From Bryobacterales bacterium KBS 96 (GTDB lineage: Bacteria > Acidobacteriota > Terriglobia > Bryobacterales > Bryobacteraceae), in NCBI GenBank assembly GCA_000381625.1, contig KB906767.1, forward strand, positions 1,280,629-1,344,628: 64,000 nt of DNA, written 5' to 3'. Below are positions 16,996 through 35,761 of the stretch, in pieces. The notes beneath the pieces are model-generated. The model was given only the letters and a program-made list of their open reading frames with translations. It was not told the DNA's origin and made no database searches. The position numbers and the translations under genes were made by a program. Position 1 is the first letter of the stretch. Each line of letters begins with the position of its first letter.

Positions 16996-17622
16996 ATGAA
17001 TTCCGATCGGCACGTCCGGGGTCCTCTGATGCCAGCAGCTGCTCTGATTCTGGCAGCAGGCTCCGCCAGCCGGATGGGTAGCCTCAAACAATTACTTCCC
17101 TACGGAAACGGAACATTGCTTACTCATTCGATTGAACAGGCACAGCAAGCCGCCTTTGACCGGATCATCGTCGTTATCGGCGCGGAAGCCGAGCGTGTGC
17201 GCCGTTCAGTCGCGGGGCTACCCATCGAGATCGCTCTTAACGAGAACTGGGCAATGGGAATGGGCTCGTCCATCGCTGCCGGCGTGCAACGGTTTAGAAC
17301 GGCCGGGCCGGTCCTGCCCGTTCTCGGCATCCTGTTAGCCGACCAGCCCTGGGTGTCGGCCGGACACCTGCGAGCGATGCGCGAACAGTTGGAATCGACA
17401 AATGCGGCCGCCGTGGCCGCCGAATACGCGAACGGACTTGGAGTACCCGCCTTGTTCCAGGAGAAATTGTACCCGCTGCTCGCCGCCCTGCCGCCCGAAG
17501 CCGGCGCGAAACATCTGCTGAGAGACTGCGGAATGATAGTCAGCGCCTTTCCGCTACCGGAGGCGGCTACCGATATCGATACGCCATCCGATTTAGCGGC
17601 TCTAGAATCGATGCGAACATGA
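16996..17622 (+). CDS. MobA-like nucleotidyltransferase (MocA/CoxI-associated type)
   Basis: 208 residues. The NTP-transfer signature LILAAGSASRMGSLKQLLPY is near residue 15, followed by NENWAMGMGSSIAAGV (substrate loop) and LLADQPWVSAGHLRAM. Near the end is AKHLLRDCG and TDIDTPSDLAAL, the metal-binding IDTPxDL motif. These match molybdenum cofactor cytidylyl/guanylyltransferase-like proteins (MocA/YgfJ group), which charge the cofactor for xanthine dehydrogenase-family enzymes. No such enzyme is in the window. The next gene overlaps its stop by four bases (ATGA). Confidence 0.82.
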   Translation: MNSDRHVRGPLMPAAALILAAGSASRMGSLKQLLPYGNGTLLTHSIEQAQQAAFDRIIVVIGAEAERVRRSVAGLPIEIALNENWAMGMGSSIAAGVQRFRTAGPVLPVLGILLADQPWVSAGHLRAMREQLESTNAAAVAAEYANGLGVPALFQEKLYPLLAALPPEAGAKHLLRDCGMIVSAFPLPEAATDIDTPSDLAALESMRT

Positions 17623-18776
17623 GAGTAGCTGTGCGTTCTTCGAACTTATCCATACTGCGCCTGCGGCTCAACCAGGGATTAATGATTGTCGGAGCGTGGA
17701 CCATTGTCGCGCTGATTTCTCTGACACGCCATTACATGGTGGAAGCCACGCAGCCCATGAACGAACCGTTCTGGAAGCTGTTTCCCATCTGGCTGACCTG
17801 CTACTACTCCTGGATGCTGCTAACGCCGGCCGTTTTCGGCATGGCCCGGCGCTGGCCTCTCGCCAAAAACCGGTGGGGCCGCAATCTCCTGATTCATATT
17901 CCGCTGTCTCTGGCGTTCACCGCCGCCGCCGTATTCCTGAGCCACGCCTTCTATCTGCTGGTGAAACAGCACTCGGAGGCCGGCCTCGGCGCCTACATGC
18001 TGCACGTCCACTTTGTTTCCTACCTGAAGCATTTCCCGTTCTATTGGACAACGCTCGCGGTCGCTAACATGCTTGCCTCGTTCCGGGCCCTGCGCGAAAA
18101 GGAGCGGCTTGCGGCGCAACTCGAACTTGAACGCTCCCGCCTCGAAACAAGCCTGCGGCAGGCGCAATTGGATGCGCTCCGCATGCAGTTGAATCCACAT
18201 TTCCTGTTCAACACGTTGCAAACGATTTCCGTGCTGATGATGGACGATACCCATTCGGCGAACCGCATGCTGGTGCGGTTGAGCGATCTTCTGCGTTCCA
18301 CGCTGCGCAGTTCCGTGGAAGCGATCAGCCCCCTCAGCGAAGAACTCGCGTTTCTGCGCGCCTACCTCGAAATCGAACAGATCCGTTTCGCGGATCGTCT
18401 GCGGGTGCAGTGGAATATCGACCCGTCGACCGAGGCTGCCCTCATCCCCACACTCTTGCTTCAGCCGCTGGTTGAGAATTCGATTCGCCACGGCATCGCC
18501 CGCCTGGCCACGCCTGGGACAATCACGATTTCGAGCCGGAGCGAAGACGAAACTCTCCATTTATCGGTCGCGGATACCGGACCTGGTCTTTCCCAGCAGC
18601 AGGACGATCTGGGCCACGGCATCGGTTTGACCAATACACGCAAGCGCCTGAAGCAACTCTATCCCGAGCATGAAATGGAAATCATCGCCGGGCCAGCCGG
18701 GGGTTTCGAGGTTCGTATCGCGATTCCGCTGGCAATACAAACGCCGGCAACGGCCGGAGAGTTGGTGGCTCAATGA
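17619..18776 (+). CDS. LytS/YehU-type sensor histidine kinase
   Basis: 385 residues. Four membrane segments occupy about residues 20-155. A coiled coil (EKERLAAQLELERSRLETSL) leads to the His_kinase motif ALRMQLNPHFLFNTLQ with the acceptor His near 193. The ATPase part shows PLVENSIRHGI (N box), VADTGPGL and GHGIGLTNTRKRL. This is the 5TM/LytS-like class without HAMP. It overlaps the LytTR regulator by four bases and forms a two-component pair with it. The signal is unknown. Confidence 0.9.
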   Translation: MRVAVRSSNLSILRLRLNQGLMIVGAWTIVALISLTRHYMVEATQPMNEPFWKLFPIWLTCYYSWMLLTPAVFGMARRWPLAKNRWGRNLLIHIPLSLAFTAAAVFLSHAFYLLVKQHSEAGLGAYMLHVHFVSYLKHFPFYWTTLAVANMLASFRALREKERLAAQLELERSRLETSLRQAQLDALRMQLNPHFLFNTLQTISVLMMDDTHSANRMLVRLSDLLRSTLRSSVEAISPLSEELAFLRAYLEIEQIRFADRLRVQWNIDPSTEAALIPTLLLQPLVENSIRHGIARLATPGTITISSRSEDETLHLSVADTGPGLSQQQDDLGHGIGLTNTRKRLKQLYPEHEMEIIAGPAGGFEVRIAIPLAIQTPATAGELVAQ

Positions 18777-19528
18777 TTCGCGTTTTAATTGTCGATGACG
18801 AACCGATTATCCGGCGCGGGCTGCGTAATCATCTCGCAAACCGCGACAACTACGAAGTGATCGGCGAATGCTGCAATGGACGATCGGCTATCGAGCAGAT
18901 CGAAGAATTGAAGCCCGATCTGGTGTTTCTCGACGTCCAGATGCCCGAAGTGGACGGCTTCGGCGTTATTCGCGAAGTTGGCGCCGAAAACATGCCTCCC
19001 GTTGTCTTCATCACCGCCTACGATGAATACGCGGTCAGCGCGTTTGACGTAAATGCGCTGGATTATCTCTTGAAACCATTCGACGAAGATCGTCTGCTGC
19101 GCTGCCTGTCGCGGGTGGAGCAGCGCCTGGCGGAACCGCGCGCCGAATCGGTGCTGGTGCGGCAACTCGCGTCGCTTGTAGCCGGACAGGTAAAGCCGAG
19201 AATTGCCGACCGGCTCGCCATCCGCAACTCCGATCGAATCACGCTGCTGCAAACCGACGAGATCGATTGGATCGAAGCAGCGGATAATTACGTCGAGATC
19301 CACGTCGGCAAACAAGTCCACCTGATGCGCGAGACGTTAAGCAATTTAGAGCAGCGGCTGCAGCCTCACCGTTTCCTGCGTATCCACCGCTCGCGCCTGG
19401 TGAACGCCGATCGGATCAAAGAGATGCACCCGCTCTTTCATGGCGAGTATGAACTCGTGCTGCACGACGGCACACATCTCACCTCAAGCCGCCATTACCG
19501 CGAAGTGCTCCAAAGCCTGCTGGTGTAA
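18773..19528 (+). CDS. LytTR-family response regulator
   Basis: 251 residues. The receiver (about 1-120) has IVDDEP, the acceptor Asp near residue 54 in LVFLDVQMPEVDG, Thr in FITAYDEYAVSAF and Lys in DYLLKPF. The LytTR DNA-binding domain (about 150-250) has DEIDWIEAADNYVEIHVGK, LEQRLQPHRFLRIHRSRLVN and HLTSSRHYREVL. All catalytic residues are present. It is the partner of the upstream LytS-type kinase. Its last 87 bases and the following 150 bases are repeated at 22082-22325. Confidence 0.92.
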   Translation: MIRVLIVDDEPIIRRGLRNHLANRDNYEVIGECCNGRSAIEQIEELKPDLVFLDVQMPEVDGFGVIREVGAENMPPVVFITAYDEYAVSAFDVNALDYLLKPFDEDRLLRCLSRVEQRLAEPRAESVLVRQLASLVAGQVKPRIADRLAIRNSDRITLLQTDEIDWIEAADNYVEIHVGKQVHLMRETLSNLEQRLQPHRFLRIHRSRLVNADRIKEMHPLFHGEYELVLHDGTHLTSSRHYREVLQSLLV

Positions 19529-29037: not shown

Positions 29038-29733
29038 CTATCGGCGGACCACGCCGGCGATTTCATTCAGGATTTGCTCGCACGCCGCTTTGGGGTCCGC
29101 AGCGCGCGTAACCTGGCGGCCGATAACGAGATAGTCGGCTCCGGCTTGTATCGCTTCCGCCGGAGTCGCGACACGCTTTTGGTCGCCTGTCGCCGTGCCA
29201 GCCGAGCGTACGCCGGGCGTCACCAGTTTCAAGCCGGGGCCACCGATTTCGCGGACTTTCGCCACTTCAAGCGCCGAACACACAATGCCGTCGATGCCGC
29301 TCTCCACCGCTTTGCGAACTCGGAGCGCGACTAACTCGGAAACGGGTGTCGAGAACCCGAAATCGGCGAGATCGTCCTGATCGAAGCTGGTCAACACCGT
29401 TACCGCAAGCAATCGAGTGGCGCTATCGCCCCGGCCTTCCACCGCTGCCTGCATTACCGCTTTACTGCCGTGTACGGTTAGGAATGTCACGCCTGAGCGG
29501 GAGATCTGCCGGGTTGCTCGCTTCACTGTCTCGGAGATGTCATAGAGCTTCAGATCGAGAAAGACTCGCTTGCCACTGCCGAGCAACTCCTGCACAAATG
29601 ACATTCCCGCAACCGCATACAATTCCATCCCGACTTTATAGAAATCGGCGCCATGTCCAATGGCATTCACCAGGCGCCGGGCTTCCTCCACTGTGTCCAC
29701 ATCGAGAGCGATAATCAGCGGACTGTCCTTCAC
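29038..29733 (-). CDS. pyrF: Orotidine 5'-phosphate decarboxylase
   Basis: 231 residues, the usual length for the group I enzyme. The TIM-barrel start LIIALDVDTVEEARRLV is followed by the catalytic D-x-K-x-x-D motif in FLDLKLYDISETV, TVHGSKAVMQAA, CSALEVAKVRE, VTPGVRSAG and GADYLVIGRQVTRAADP. It converts OMP to UMP in pyrimidine synthesis. Its start overlaps the selD stop by four bases, so the two are co-translated, an arrangement with no obvious metabolic link. The other pyr genes are not in the window. Confidence 0.93.
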   Translation of the reverse strand: MKDSPLIIALDVDTVEEARRLVNAIGHGADFYKVGMELYAVAGMSFVQELLGSGKRVFLDLKLYDISETVKRATRQISRSGVTFLTVHGSKAVMQAAVEGRGDSATRLLAVTVLTSFDQDDLADFGFSTPVSELVALRVRKAVESGIDGIVCSALEVAKVREIGGPGLKLVTPGVRSAGTATGDQKRVATPAEAIQAGADYLVIGRQVTRAADPKAACEQILNEIAGVVRR

Positions 29734-30764
29734 GATTGCACCTCGATCGGCTTTCGGCTCCGCTCCGTTACGCGGCCAATGACATATGCTTCCGGACGCC
29801 GGTCCATTAGCCGCTCGGCGTCCGCGTCGCTCATCGTGAGAAGCAGACCTCCCGATGTCTGTGGGTCATAGAATAGCGATTCCACTTCAGACGGAATATC
29901 CTCGGCCATGATCACGCAATCGGAGACAAAATCGCGATTATTGCTGAGCCCGCCGGAATGCGCTCCGGCCTTCGAGTATTCGATAGCGCCGGGAAGGAAT
30001 TTCACCTTGCTTGCGGCAATTTTGAGAGTGACATTCGAGGCCAAAGCCATTTCGCGAGCATGTCCCAGCAAACCGAAGCCGGTGACGTCCGTGCAGCCGT
30101 GTACAGCCAAATCATCCATAGCCTCGGCGATGCCCCGGTTCAACGTGACCATCTGCGCGATGGACGCGTCCATATCGCCCTGATCGACGATTCCCTTCTT
30201 TAGAGCGGTCGAAATCACACCTGTGCCGATACGTTTGGTAAAAACCAGCACGTCGCCCGGCGCCGCTCCTGCGTTGGTGAGCGTGCGGCGCGGATCGATC
30301 AGCCCCGTGACCGCGTAGCCGAACTTCACTTCATCTTCCGAAATACTGTGACCGCCGAGAATCACGCAGTCGGCCTCGTGAATCTTGTCGGCGCCCCCCT
30401 TTAGAATGGCTTCGAGATCGGCTATGTCTCCCTTTGCCGGATAGACAAGCAGAGAGAGAGCGGTAACCGGACGCCCGCCCATGGCATACACGTCGCTCAA
30501 TGCGTTCGCCGCAGCGATAGCGCCAAATGTATACGGATCGTCCACAATCGGAGTGAAAAAATCTACGGTCTGCACCATTGCGAGCGGGATGCCGGCATCT
30601 GGAGTTAAGTCATACACGCCGGCATCGTCGGCAGTATCGTAACCGACCAGGACGCGATCGTTTGTCCTTCGAGGCGCCGATTTAAGGGCGCGATCGAGGA
30701 TTTTCGGGCTGAGTTTTGACGCGCAGCCGCCCGCCTTGACGTTCGCGGTAAGTTTTGCAGCCAT
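29730..30764 (-). CDS. selD: Selenide, water dikinase (selenophosphate synthetase)
   Basis: 344 residues. The N-terminal active-site motif reads GGCASKLSPKIL: the essential Cys and Lys are present, and the second Cys of the E. coli GCGCK motif is Ser. Then come GYDTADDAGVYDL (metal-binding Asp), VDFFTPIVDDPYTFGAIAAAN, YAMGGRPVTALSLL, GGHSISEDEVKFGYAVTG and GCTDVTGFGLLGHA. It makes selenophosphate from selenide and ATP for selenocysteine or selenouridine. No selA, selB, selC or selU is in the window. It is the first gene of a selD-pyrF unit. Confidence 0.93.
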   Translation of the reverse strand: MAAKLTANVKAGGCASKLSPKILDRALKSAPRRTNDRVLVGYDTADDAGVYDLTPDAGIPLAMVQTVDFFTPIVDDPYTFGAIAAANALSDVYAMGGRPVTALSLLVYPAKGDIADLEAILKGGADKIHEADCVILGGHSISEDEVKFGYAVTGLIDPRRTLTNAGAAPGDVLVFTKRIGTGVISTALKKGIVDQGDMDASIAQMVTLNRGIAEAMDDLAVHGCTDVTGFGLLGHAREMALASNVTLKIAASKVKFLPGAIEYSKAGAHSGGLSNNRDFVSDCVIMAEDIPSEVESLFYDPQTSGGLLLTMSDADAERLMDRRPEAYVIGRVTERSRKPIEVQS

Positions 30765-32186: not shown

Positions 32187-32858
32187 ATGATCCGGCTATT
32201 AATCGCCGATAGTTTTCCGGTCGCAAGAGCCGGCCTGCGTGCTATTCTCGCCCCTTCTCTAGACATCGAAATTGTAGCCGAGGCGGAAGACGGCTCCGAG
32301 GCCATTGACCGCGCGTTGGAACTGGACCCGGATGTCGTCATTATGGAATTGCGGCTGCCCAAGACGGATGGCCTCACGGTCCTGCGAACCTTACAGACTC
32401 GCGCTCCGCGGACCAAGATTCTTCTCTTCACGGGATCCGATAGCAAGGATGAGTTCATCGAGGCAATGAAGCTGGGTTGTTCCGGCATTCTGATGAAGAA
32501 CTCCGCGCCTTCACTGATTATCAAAAGCATCCAGAAGGTGAACGCCGGAGAGATCTGGCTGGATTCGAACACAACCGCCGCCGTGATCCGCCAGTTCGCG
32601 AATCCTGCGGATTTCGCTGCCCCCTCCCAGCACGGGAACGGTAAACCCCGTGAACGCGCCCAACTCAGCCAGCGCGAGCGGGAGATCATCGTCCTGATCG
32701 CCCAGGGTTACAAAAACAAGGAAATCGCGGAAAAGATGTTTATCACCGAACAGACGGTCAAAAATCATCTGCACAACGTGTTCGATAAACTCGGCGTTTC
32801 CGATAGACTCGAATTGGCACTATACGCTATTCACAATAGCTTGCATTTAAAGCCGTAG
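32187..32858 (+). CDS. NarL/FixJ-type regulator with an atypical receiver domain
   Basis: 223 residues. The receiver (about 1-120) begins LLIADSFPVARAGLRAIL and the output is a LuxR-type HTH (LSQREREIIVLIAQGYKNKE, IAEKMFITEQTVKNHLHNVF). The phospho-acceptor position in VVIMELRLPKTDG is Glu (GAA codon) where the family has Asp, and the upstream acidic pair (usually DD) is DS. The Lys in ILMKNS and the small residue in LLFTGSDS remain. Such a receiver probably cannot be phosphorylated in the normal way and may mimic the active state. No kinase lies next to it; the TolB-propeller Ser/Thr kinase starts 77 bp downstream. A GC-rich hairpin (32860-32873) follows the stop. Confidence 0.9.
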   Translation: MIRLLIADSFPVARAGLRAILAPSLDIEIVAEAEDGSEAIDRALELDPDVVIMELRLPKTDGLTVLRTLQTRAPRTKILLFTGSDSKDEFIEAMKLGCSGILMKNSAPSLIIKSIQKVNAGEIWLDSNTTAAVIRQFANPADFAAPSQHGNGKPRERAQLSQREREIIVLIAQGYKNKEIAEKMFITEQTVKNHLHNVFDKLGVSDRLELALYAIHNSLHLKP

Positions 32859-32935
32859 CGCGCCCTGGGGCGCCCGCGTCTGACGCCCGGGCCAGCGGCG
32901 GCGTCTAACAAGGGTGGAACCCTACATCGACGGGC

Positions 32936-35761
32936 ATGGACGGAGAGCGTCAATCTCAGATCGACAATCTTGTTTACCGGGTCCTTACAATAGACCCTGG
33001 AAACCGCGCGTCCTTTCTCGAAAACGCCTGCCCCGATGCCGATATACGGGAAGAGGTCACCCGCACGCTCGTGCGGCTCTCCGTTTTCAGTGAACCCCGC
33101 TCGCTTGACGAAAAACCGGACAATATCCCGCTAGCGCAAGCTCCTCCGGATCATCGCGCTGGCCGGATAGTAGGCGTGTACCGGATTCTTAGACGCATCG
33201 GCCAGGGCGGAATGGGTGAAGTCTATCTTGCTATGGACGTACGCCTGGAACGGCATGTCGCGCTAAAATTTTTGCCCGCGCAGACGACCGGCGACGAACT
33301 GCTGGTGCGCCGCTTTCAACTGGAGGCGAGAACGGCATCGTCGCTGAACCATCCGAACATCCTGACGATTTTCGACGTCGGCAAAATCGATGGTGAGCAT
33401 TTCATCGCAAGCGAGTTCGTCGACGGCGTCACTTTACGATCCCGCCTGCGGGAAGGACCACTCGCATTCCCCGAAGCCATCGAGATCGTCACTCAGGCTG
33501 TGTCGGCGCTGGTCGCCGCGCATTCGGCCGGAGTCATACATCGCGATTTGAAGCCGACCAACATTATGATCCGGCCGGACGGCTACATCAAGGTGATCGA
33601 CTTCGGGTTGGCAAAACTGTCGGCCTCGCGCAATCAGGCGAATCGGGACGAGGCCTACACACGGCCCGGAACCATGGTGGGCACGGTCGACTATATGTCG
33701 CCGGAGCAGGCGCGCGGCGATGAAGTCGATCCGCGAAGCGACATCTGGAGCCTGGGCGTCGTGCTGTACGAGATGCTGACCGGACGAAAGCCATTCGACG
33801 GCAAGACGGACCACCACGTGGTCGTGAGCATTCTCGAAAAGGATCCGCCCCCGCTTGCGGAAACGGCATCGATTCCCGAAGATGTGCAGCGGCTTGTGGA
33901 TCGGTGTCTGCGGAAAGATCCGAAACAGCGCTATGGAAGCGCGGAAGAACTGCTGGCCGACTTGCGGACAATCAGGCGGGCACTGAACCTATCGGACGGA
34001 TCGCGGCCGGCCGTTGCGGCTGTTCGGAAGAAACCGAAGTGGATGTTCATCGCCGCGAGCGTAACCTGCCTCGCGCTGGCAGCCATGCTGTGGTGGCTTT
34101 TCGTTGGAAGGCAATGGTTTTTTGGCTTGGAGCCATTCGACATCGGAACTATCCAGCAACTGACCTTCAATGGAGATACAAAATCGGCTGCCATTTCTCC
34201 GGAAGGACGGTATCTTGCCTATATCTCGGGATCTCCCGGACACGAAGCGATCTGGATTAAACGCATCGATTCGTCCACCGAGAGCGTGAGAGCGCAAGTC
34301 TCGGCCGACGAATACGATTCGCTGACATTCTCAAGCGATGGGCAGGACATTTACTTCGTCGCCAGAAAAAAAGAGTATGGTCGGCTTTATAAGGTTCCAC
34401 TGGCGGGCGGCGATCCGCGGTTGCTCGTAAACGACGTAGACGGCCCGATCACATTCAAGCCGGGTGGTGCTCAATTTGCCTTTCGGCGTAATGTCAACGG
34501 CGCTTCGGGAATCGTGATCGCTTCCAGCGCGCCGCCTCGCCGAGAACAAACCATCTTCAAAAGCGATGCCCTGCTTGGGCGTAGAATCGCCTGGTCGCCG
34601 GATTCTAAAATAATCGCCACGACCGTTTATCCCGCGCCGGGCAGTTCGAAATGGCCCAGTTTGGCATTAATCGAAGCGGCCGGGCCACATCAAATACGTT
34701 TAATGCCGCTTTCAGGCTGGCGGGCTACCCATCAGTTCGTGTGGCTGAACCGCTCCGATCTAATTGTTCCTACAGCTTCGAACGAAGAGACCGACGACCA
34801 GATGCAACTCCGGGAATTCTCAACGAAGACTGGCGAGTCCAGGAGTTTGACGGCCGACATGTACGGATACTCGGGAGCTAGCCTGACGCAGGACCGGCAA
34901 TCGCTTGTCACGATCAGAATCGAAAGGCGCACCACGTTTTGGACGGCGAATCGGGATAACCTGCGGCTCGGAGAAAGCACGGCCGGCGATACCGGACGGT
35001 ACGAAAGCGTTGACTGGTCGGACGATGGTCTGCTGGTCTCGCAGGCCAATCGCGGCGCTGGAACGAATGTCTGGATGATCGATCCCACCGACTCGCGTCC
35101 GAAGAAACTGACTGACGGTCTATTTGTCGATAGAAATCCCGTCTGGATTCACGGTTCCCGCGCCGTTGCTTTTGCCTCGAACCGAAGCGGTTCCCCCGGG
35201 CTTTGGCGATACGATCTCGACACCGGCCAATACAAGCTTCTGGTAAGCGGCGCGGGCTACATCGAATCTCCCCAGTGCTCGCCGGATGGCAACTGGCTTG
35301 TATACACGGATTGGACCGCCAACCAGCCCTCGATCTGGCGGGTGGCATCGACCGGCGGAGCGCCTGTTCGAATTTTCTCGGAAGAAGCTCGCCATCCGGT
35401 TTTCTCGCCCGATGGAAAACGAATCGCGGCCGAAGTGCTCAGTGGTCCGCAGCACACAGAATGGCAGGTGACGGTTTTCTCACTGGACACAAATCGGCCG
35501 ATTCAACGCGTCCCTACCATCCCCAGCGGCGCGCGGCTGGGGTGGTATCCGGATGGGCGCGGGCTAACGTACATCGTTACCGACGATCACGGCGTGTCGA
35601 ATATCTGGCAGCAGCCTCTGTCGAGCAGCGCTCCTACCCAGATCACCTCGTTTCAGGAAAACCAAATCTTCGACTACGGTTGGTCTCAAGACGGCGAGAA
35701 GCTCGCATGCCTGCGAGGACGAGCGTGGTCGGATGCCTACTTGTTACAAAGGAAGCCATAG
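32936..35761 (+). CDS. Ser/Thr protein kinase with a TolB-like beta-propeller sensor
   Basis: 941 residues. An N-terminal region of about 80 residues precedes a complete Hanks-type kinase domain: IGQGGMGEVYLAMD (near 88), VALKFLP (ATP-binding Lys), HRDLKPTN (about 201), DFGLAK (about 221), GTVDYMSPEQARG. One membrane helix lies near 368-390 (FIAASVTCLALAAMLWWLFVG). The rest (about 400-941) is a WD40/TolB-like propeller with repeating blades, such as AAISPEGRYLAYISG, LTFSSDGQDIYFV, IAWSPDSKIIATT and PQCSPDGNWLVYT. The kinase is cytoplasmic and the propeller periplasmic. This architecture is common in acidobacteria; the ligand and targets are unknown. Confidence 0.92.
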   Translation: MDGERQSQIDNLVYRVLTIDPGNRASFLENACPDADIREEVTRTLVRLSVFSEPRSLDEKPDNIPLAQAPPDHRAGRIVGVYRILRRIGQGGMGEVYLAMDVRLERHVALKFLPAQTTGDELLVRRFQLEARTASSLNHPNILTIFDVGKIDGEHFIASEFVDGVTLRSRLREGPLAFPEAIEIVTQAVSALVAAHSAGVIHRDLKPTNIMIRPDGYIKVIDFGLAKLSASRNQANRDEAYTRPGTMVGTVDYMSPEQARGDEVDPRSDIWSLGVVLYEMLTGRKPFDGKTDHHVVVSILEKDPPPLAETASIPEDVQRLVDRCLRKDPKQRYGSAEELLADLRTIRRALNLSDGSRPAVAAVRKKPKWMFIAASVTCLALAAMLWWLFVGRQWFFGLEPFDIGTIQQLTFNGDTKSAAISPEGRYLAYISGSPGHEAIWIKRIDSSTESVRAQVSADEYDSLTFSSDGQDIYFVARKKEYGRLYKVPLAGGDPRLLVNDVDGPITFKPGGAQFAFRRNVNGASGIVIASSAPPRREQTIFKSDALLGRRIAWSPDSKIIATTVYPAPGSSKWPSLALIEAAGPHQIRLMPLSGWRATHQFVWLNRSDLIVPTASNEETDDQMQLREFSTKTGESRSLTADMYGYSGASLTQDRQSLVTIRIERRTTFWTANRDNLRLGESTAGDTGRYESVDWSDDGLLVSQANRGAGTNVWMIDPTDSRPKKLTDGLFVDRNPVWIHGSRAVAFASNRSGSPGLWRYDLDTGQYKLLVSGAGYIESPQCSPDGNWLVYTDWTANQPSIWRVASTGGAPVRIFSEEARHPVFSPDGKRIAAEVLSGPQHTEWQVTVFSLDTNRPIQRVPTIPSGARLGWYPDGRGLTYIVTDDHGVSNIWQQPLSSSAPTQITSFQENQIFDYGWSQDGEKLACLRGRAWSDAYLLQRKP

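Follow-up and report, generated by a model that had tools for sequence, protein, structure and literature searches.

The window analysed here, a 64,000-nucleotide stretch from the genome of Bryobacterales bacterium KBS 96, encodes a NarL/FixJ-type response regulator with glutamate in place of the phospho-accepting aspartate, followed on the same strand by a gene for a Ser/Thr kinase (Table 1). This arrangement raises the question of how such a regulator may be controlled, and whether the glutamate itself or the neighboring kinase could stand in for the usual phosphorylation on aspartate. Both the open reading frame and the intact LuxR-type output described in an initial annotation were found as stated. 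Response_reg (PF00072) matches residues 5–115 at 80.7 bits (cut-off 30.2) and GerE/LuxR (PF00196) residues 159–214 at 72.5 bits (cut-off 23.5), giving the receiver joined to a GerE/LuxR output that is characteristic of NarL/FixJ response regulators, also according to Foldseek with LiaR, VraR and NarL as top matches. In the AlphaFold2 model (mean pLDDT of 80.3 for the whole regulator), the five strands and five helices of a (beta-alpha)5 fold are predicted for the receiver, with pLDDT values of 93–98 in the block of residues 1–80, and the receiver fold is predicted to be retained, as expected of a pseudo-receiver.

Table 1. Features of the regulator–kinase locus and other genes discussed; positions are those of the window, and residue counts refer to the 17 members of the pseudo-receiver clade described in the text.
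Feature	Position	Strand	Remarks
AIR-synthase-type protein	29730..30764	-	Pfam AIRS domains
NarL/FixJ-type response regulator with pseudo-receiver domain	32187..32858	+	223 aa, ATG start
Receiver domain, residues 5–115	32199..32531	+	Pfam Response_reg PF00072; AlphaFold2 model
Acidic pair Asp8 (kept) and Ser9 (canonically Asp)	32208..32213	+	residue 9: S/G/A in 17/17
GAA, Glu54 at phospho-Asp position	32346..32348	+	Glu 6/17, Asp 11/17
Thr82, conserved Thr/Ser position	32430..32432	+	A 10, T 3, S 3, P 1
Cys98	32478..32480	+
Lys104, conserved active-site Lys	32496..32498	+	K 15, R 2
LuxR/GerE DNA-binding domain, residues 159–214	32661..32828	+	Pfam; residues 155–221 identical to G001 in amino acids
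Regulator–kinase spacer, 77 bp	32859..32935	+	93% identical to G001 (alignment includes gene ends)
Hanks-type Ser/Thr kinase, 941 residues	32936..35761	+	Pfam; starts 77 bp after regulator stop
Kinase domain, residues 82–340	33179..33955	+
ORF after kinase, 175 aa	35832..36359	+	no Pfam match
Canonical two-component pair	17619..19528	+	His_kinase-family sensor 17619..18776 overlaps LytTR response regulator 18773..19528

The residue set for aspartate phosphorylation, canonically D, D, D, T, K, is absent from the regulator, as its active site reads Asp8, Ser9, Glu54, Thr82 and Lys104 (D, S, E, T, K), with Ser9 at the second metal-binding Asp position. Both replacements had been pointed out in the initial annotation, the GAA codon at the phospho-acceptor site and DS for the DD pair, and both are confirmed and shared by G001, the nearest relative found (89% identical), which has the same residues and the same codons, GAA at 54 and AGT at 9. 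The shared codons argue against a sequencing error, and a recent mutation in a single genome is rejected because G001 carries Glu54 and Ser9 too. Scoring above the PF00072 cut-off and yet bearing Ser at the second position of the DD pair and Glu at the phospho-site, the protein falls under the definition of a pseudo-receiver or aspartate-less receiver. Within its own genome, Asp is missing from the phospho-site of 4 of the 80 receivers examined (87 found), a share close to the rate of about 4% given in the literature (PMC12632262). Two of these four carry Glu, one of them being a partial and weak match (L294); the further receivers of this kind, L270, L292 and L294, read Ala, Pro and Glu, respectively, in an automatic alignment. 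Cys98 of the regulator is kept in at least 90% of 38 aligned rows, canonical and converted.

Searches with the regulator gave matches in 96 of 121 genomes (E ≤ 1e-30) and in 187 of 237 genomes of the same family (E ≤ 1e-70), and the comparison set comprises the window protein and the best 80 of at least 506 relatives, i.e., 17 clade members and 64 others. The 17 orthologs, all from Bryobacteraceae (Acidobacteriota), form one clade with 100/100 support and of single origin; they come from three genera and are represented by the window, G001 of the same genus, G068 and 14 members of the genus g50. All 17 keep Asp8 and a basic residue 104 (Lys or Arg), and all have lost the second acidic residue (Gly in 11, Ser in 4 and Ala in 2), while residue 54 is only ever Asp or Glu. 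In contrast, 63 of the 64 other relatives read DDDTK and one DYDTK, with Glu54 never occurring among them. Loss of Asp9 in 17 of 17 members, set against the complete five-residue set in 63 of 64 others, argues for a clade-wide pseudo-receiver beyond chance. The check proposed in the initial annotation, whether close relatives have Asp at this site, has a divided answer, as G001 carries Glu and 11 of the 17 clade members have Asp. The frame is open in every member, and each of the 17 genomes gives a single match at E ≤ 1e-70, hence no second canonical copy, so that the converted form seems to have taken the place of the canonical protein; a paralog existing beside a canonical copy is not supported. 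An eighteenth member, G143, has Glu54 and Ser82, with an assembly gap interrupting its gene (L210 7780–8413). Genomes G152 and G154, from which no regulator ortholog was obtained, were left out of the counts.

The kinase gene downstream encodes a catalytic domain followed by one predicted membrane span (residues 372–390) and a WD40-like/TolB-type beta-propeller, and the catalytic motifs VALK, HRDLK and DFG are present in 9 of 9 clade kinases. That a Ser/Thr kinase follows the regulator had been noted initially, and it proves to be a recurring neighbor: a kinase domain follows immediately in the same orientation in 6 of the 17 clade members (window, G001, G068, G142, G144 and G149) versus none of the 64 others, five of which have less than 1 kb in view, and still none of the other 59. 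Fisher tests, both ignoring relatedness, give p = 3.8e-5 for 17 versus 64 and 5.7e-5 versus the 59 with at least 1 kb. The regulator–kinase link is thus real as genome organization, and the kinase may act on the regulator. In trees of 46 and 44 kinases, which exclude some G034 matches without locus, the six adjacent kinases form one clade (100/99 and 100/98) with those of G050, G151 and G155, which lie away from the regulator (in G155, about 6 kb further downstream in the same orientation), and the branching of this clade broadly parallels that of the regulators. A kinase match of G152 was discarded as clade ortholog since it was placed outside this clade, and the absence of the kinase ortholog from canonical genomes is based on six genomes. 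Adjacency occurs in three genera and in two gene contexts, one of which, that of the window, G001 and G068, has a divergently oriented gene for a DUF2961 protein upstream. In the g50 context, the divergent gene is one that we take to be pgk-like from the start of its protein, and metH, named by Pfam in one locus (L072) and by eye elsewhere, lies downstream in several cases. As the G050 kinase adjoins a metH-like start away from the regulator, the sequence of regulator, kinase and metH may be the older g50 order. Propeller kinases have numerous paralogs in the genomes examined, so that some adjacency would come cheaply, and unrelated kinases occur upstream within 5 kb at two canonical loci and in one clade member.

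Some further observations concern this unit and its surroundings. The regulator-linked kinase of G144 is present as two ORFs, one of 370 aa with the kinase and one of 508 aa (L066 10546–13289), owing either to gene fission or to an assembly frameshift. The ORF after the kinase, in which a GPRSPQDP stretch is repeated close to the start, is conserved in G001 (88%) and is possibly a third gene of the regulator–kinase unit. Around the regulator, spacer included, a consensus scan gave no terminator; promoter-like sites amount to one versus 0.6 expected, the search for an autoregulatory site gave nothing above chance, with one weak inverted repeat on each side, and folding of the spacer is no better than that of shuffled sequence. 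Upstream, the AIR-synthase-type protein on the opposite strand has a Cys in an N-terminal GGC motif. This product resembles the selenophosphate synthetase SelD.

No kinase ortholog was found in 8 of the 17 clade members, which include the incomplete genomes G147 (55%) and G157 (73%), nor in G143; hence, the kinase cannot be needed by all. Within the set of 17, the ortholog occurs in all 6 Glu54 genomes versus 3 of the 11 Asp54 genomes (p = 0.009, ignoring relatedness). With G143 added, the numbers change to 6 of 7 versus 3 of 11 (p = 0.05, again ignoring relatedness), and without the two least complete kinase-lacking genomes p is 0.06; a strict coupling of kinase and Glu54 is accordingly weakened by G143. 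Residue 82 is Ala in all eight members without kinase ortholog and in two of the nine with it (G149 and G151), and Pro in G068, where the kinase is adjacent. Counting G143 as well, a residue other than Ala is found at 82 in 7 of 9 members with kinase versus 1 of 9 without (p = 0.015, ignoring relatedness). Tests on independent pairs have one (supported branches) to three (all branches) contrasts at their disposal, none opposite in direction, which means that these associations cannot reach significance and that the link between kinase and residues is a lead, not a result.

From these data, the reading that we prefer, and to which we would give an even chance of being right, is that an orphan NarL/FixJ regulator became a phospho-Asp-independent pseudo-receiver in one three-genus lineage, with the kinase as input where it is present. 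The starting point would have been a NarL/FixJ regulator without histidine-kinase neighbor and with the normal receiver seen in most Bryobacteraceae sampled, which then turned pseudo-receiver in this one lineage. Phosphorylation on Asp would no longer control the protein; the acidic residue 54 and the basic residue 104 may have been kept for holding the fold, or a dimer, in a working conformation, and the regulator would bind its DNA sites without phosphate on Asp. In the kinase-bearing members, the propeller might sense something outside the cytoplasm and, less certainly, the co-oriented membrane kinase might phosphorylate the regulator on Ser/Thr. Candidate sites are Thr82 in the pocket, proposed because of its residue pattern, and Thr187 and Thr190 in the DNA-binding domain. 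Threonine is common at positions of the latter type in LuxR-type domains, so that a match there is weak evidence. The choice of Thr187 and Thr190 follows from the 7ve6 alignment, in which they coincide with Thr175 and Thr178 of VraR, reported sites of Stk1 (PMC4601284).

A possible though less probable course is that the pseudo-receiver is always competent for DNA binding, with control exerted through protein level, a partner protein, a ligand or redox conditions via Cys98, the kinase being a historical neighbor that does not act on it. Retention of the regulator in the eight members without detected kinase ortholog would be in line with this, as would the amount, partner, ligand and redox routes included among published pseudo-receiver controls (PMC12632262) and the near invariance of Cys98 in the 38 rows. 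Yet kinase adjacency has survived in two contexts and three genera and is confined to the clade, and Cys98 is not special to pseudo-receivers, as canonical relatives have it equally. Going further than our preferred reading, one could assume a dedicated pair in which the beta-propeller receptor kinase replaced a histidine kinase, Asp9 being lost first and site 54 becoming free to be Asp or Glu, with Thr/Ser82 or the recognition-helix threonines as new target and the hydroxyl at 82 being lost in lineages that lost the kinase; we regard this more specific sequence of events as doubtful.

The main idea of the initial annotation, that Glu54 mimics phospho-Asp and locks the receiver in its active state, is improbable in our view and is not supported as the main story. 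In its favor, aspartate-less receivers carry Glu more often than any other replacement (26%), Glu can activate some regulators (PMC4395418), and the window protein retains Thr82 and Lys104, by which the mimic would be held. However, loss of Asp9 is common to the whole clade, and Glu and Asp interchange after residue 9 had already been lost, residue 54 requiring five changes on a 37-row tree built without active-site columns and four on a smaller tree of 21 rows. This toggling suggests that a pocket altered beforehand tolerates either acid, Asp or Glu, and, judging from the trees, Glu54 is a repeated, conservative state and not the founding change. Moreover, the Glu members G151 and G068 have Ala and Pro, respectively, at residue 82, where the usual coupling Thr is gone, and the exchange of Asp for Glu alone often does not activate (PMC4395418). 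Proposals that Glu confers constitutive activity have in some cases been refuted by mutation (PMC12632262). Further changes fixed in the clade are Leu to Phe at 81, Gln to Arg at 67 and Ser to Thr at 187.

It is very unlikely that the clade has a weak but working receiver, with residual phosphorylation of Asp54 in the Asp members, little or none in the Glu members, and a distant histidine kinase as donor. Asp54 in 11 of 17 and Lys104 in most members would allow for it, and the chemistry does not necessarily disappear with changes at DD, T or K (PMC12632262), but none of the 17 retains the direct metal ligand, residue 82 is Ala or Pro in 11, and site 54 is Glu in 6. In addition, no HisKA_3 domain was found within 60 kb of the regulator on its own contig among the 103 matches listed for 12 genomes (5 clade and 7 canonical, several with short contigs). 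Canonical and converted regulators alike look like orphans in the genomes checked, so that an adjacent histidine kinase would have been lost before the pocket changed. The window itself also encodes a canonical sensor–regulator pair, the genes of which overlap (Table 1).

Between window and G001, the receiver has a dN of 0.086 and a dS of 0.735 (dN/dS 0.117), and residues 155–221 show zero amino-acid change at a dS of 0.427, which, as far as codon comparison goes, shows strong purifying selection on the DNA-binding domain and in sum indicates a working, maintained gene. Hence, a decaying gene or an assembly artefact, for which the interrupted copy of G143 could be adduced, is hardly credible in view of dN/dS values of 0.117 and 0 in the two domains, codons shared with an independent assembly and open frames throughout the clade.

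The pseudo-receiver reading places the protein beside the known aspartate-less or pseudo-receivers (ALR, PsR), such as the Glu-bearing ChxR, which likewise keep the fold, have Glu for the phospho-Asp, have lost the second acid and retain the first acid and Lys. In aspartate-less receivers, Glu accounts for 26%, the first acid is kept in 65%, the second position is acidic in 29% and the Lys position basic in 70% (PMC4395418), and loss of the second acid with first acid and Lys retained is the typical published pattern (PMC4395418, PMC12632262). Acidobacteria are described as rich in such receivers (PMC4395418). Unlike ChxR and its kind, the regulator has a NarL/FixJ output, and its clade contains both Asp and Glu versions, with fully canonical orthologs in sister genera. 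Its best PDB sequence match is NarL of E. coli (1a04, E 1.8e-32), which has the same two-domain layout but, unlike the regulator, keeps phospho-acceptor chemistry. The Gram-positive VraR/LiaR regulators (5hev, 4gvp, 7ve6) are the closest class in fold and sequence; here again, VraR differs in having a normal receiver and a histidine kinase.

For the kinase as input, the closest parallel is RitR/StkP of Streptococcus pneumoniae, RitR being an orphan without phospho-Asp that receives input from a eukaryotic-like Ser/Thr kinase (PMC4601284); in the present case, the linked kinase has intact catalytic motifs and is adjacent in 6 of 17 clade members. RitR differs in being of OmpR/PhoB type with Asn at the site and in depending on a general PASTA kinase, whereas a beta-propeller receptor kinase is encoded adjacent to the regulator of this study. 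That Ser/Thr kinases can act on response regulators is documented for WalR (PMC4478028) and RitR (PMC4601284), and the literature describes the mechanisms switching bacterial pseudo-receivers on and off as largely unknown (PMC12632262). There are precedents for pseudo-receivers with Glu and, in RitR, for a pseudo-receiver acted on by a Ser/Thr kinase, while no report of the present pair was found in the open-licence literature on linked pseudo-receivers and Ser/Thr kinases or on Bryobacter signaling. Less usual is the visible series of orthologs from canonical via half-converted to fully converted, together with a linked receptor kinase. A single family thus offers canonical, half-converted (Asp54 kept, Asp9 lost) and fully aspartate-less orthologs with a nearly invariant DNA-binding domain and, in some clade members, an adjacent gene for a candidate substitute input, by which the order of events and the idea of a takeover by a Ser/Thr kinase become directly testable with few natural proteins.
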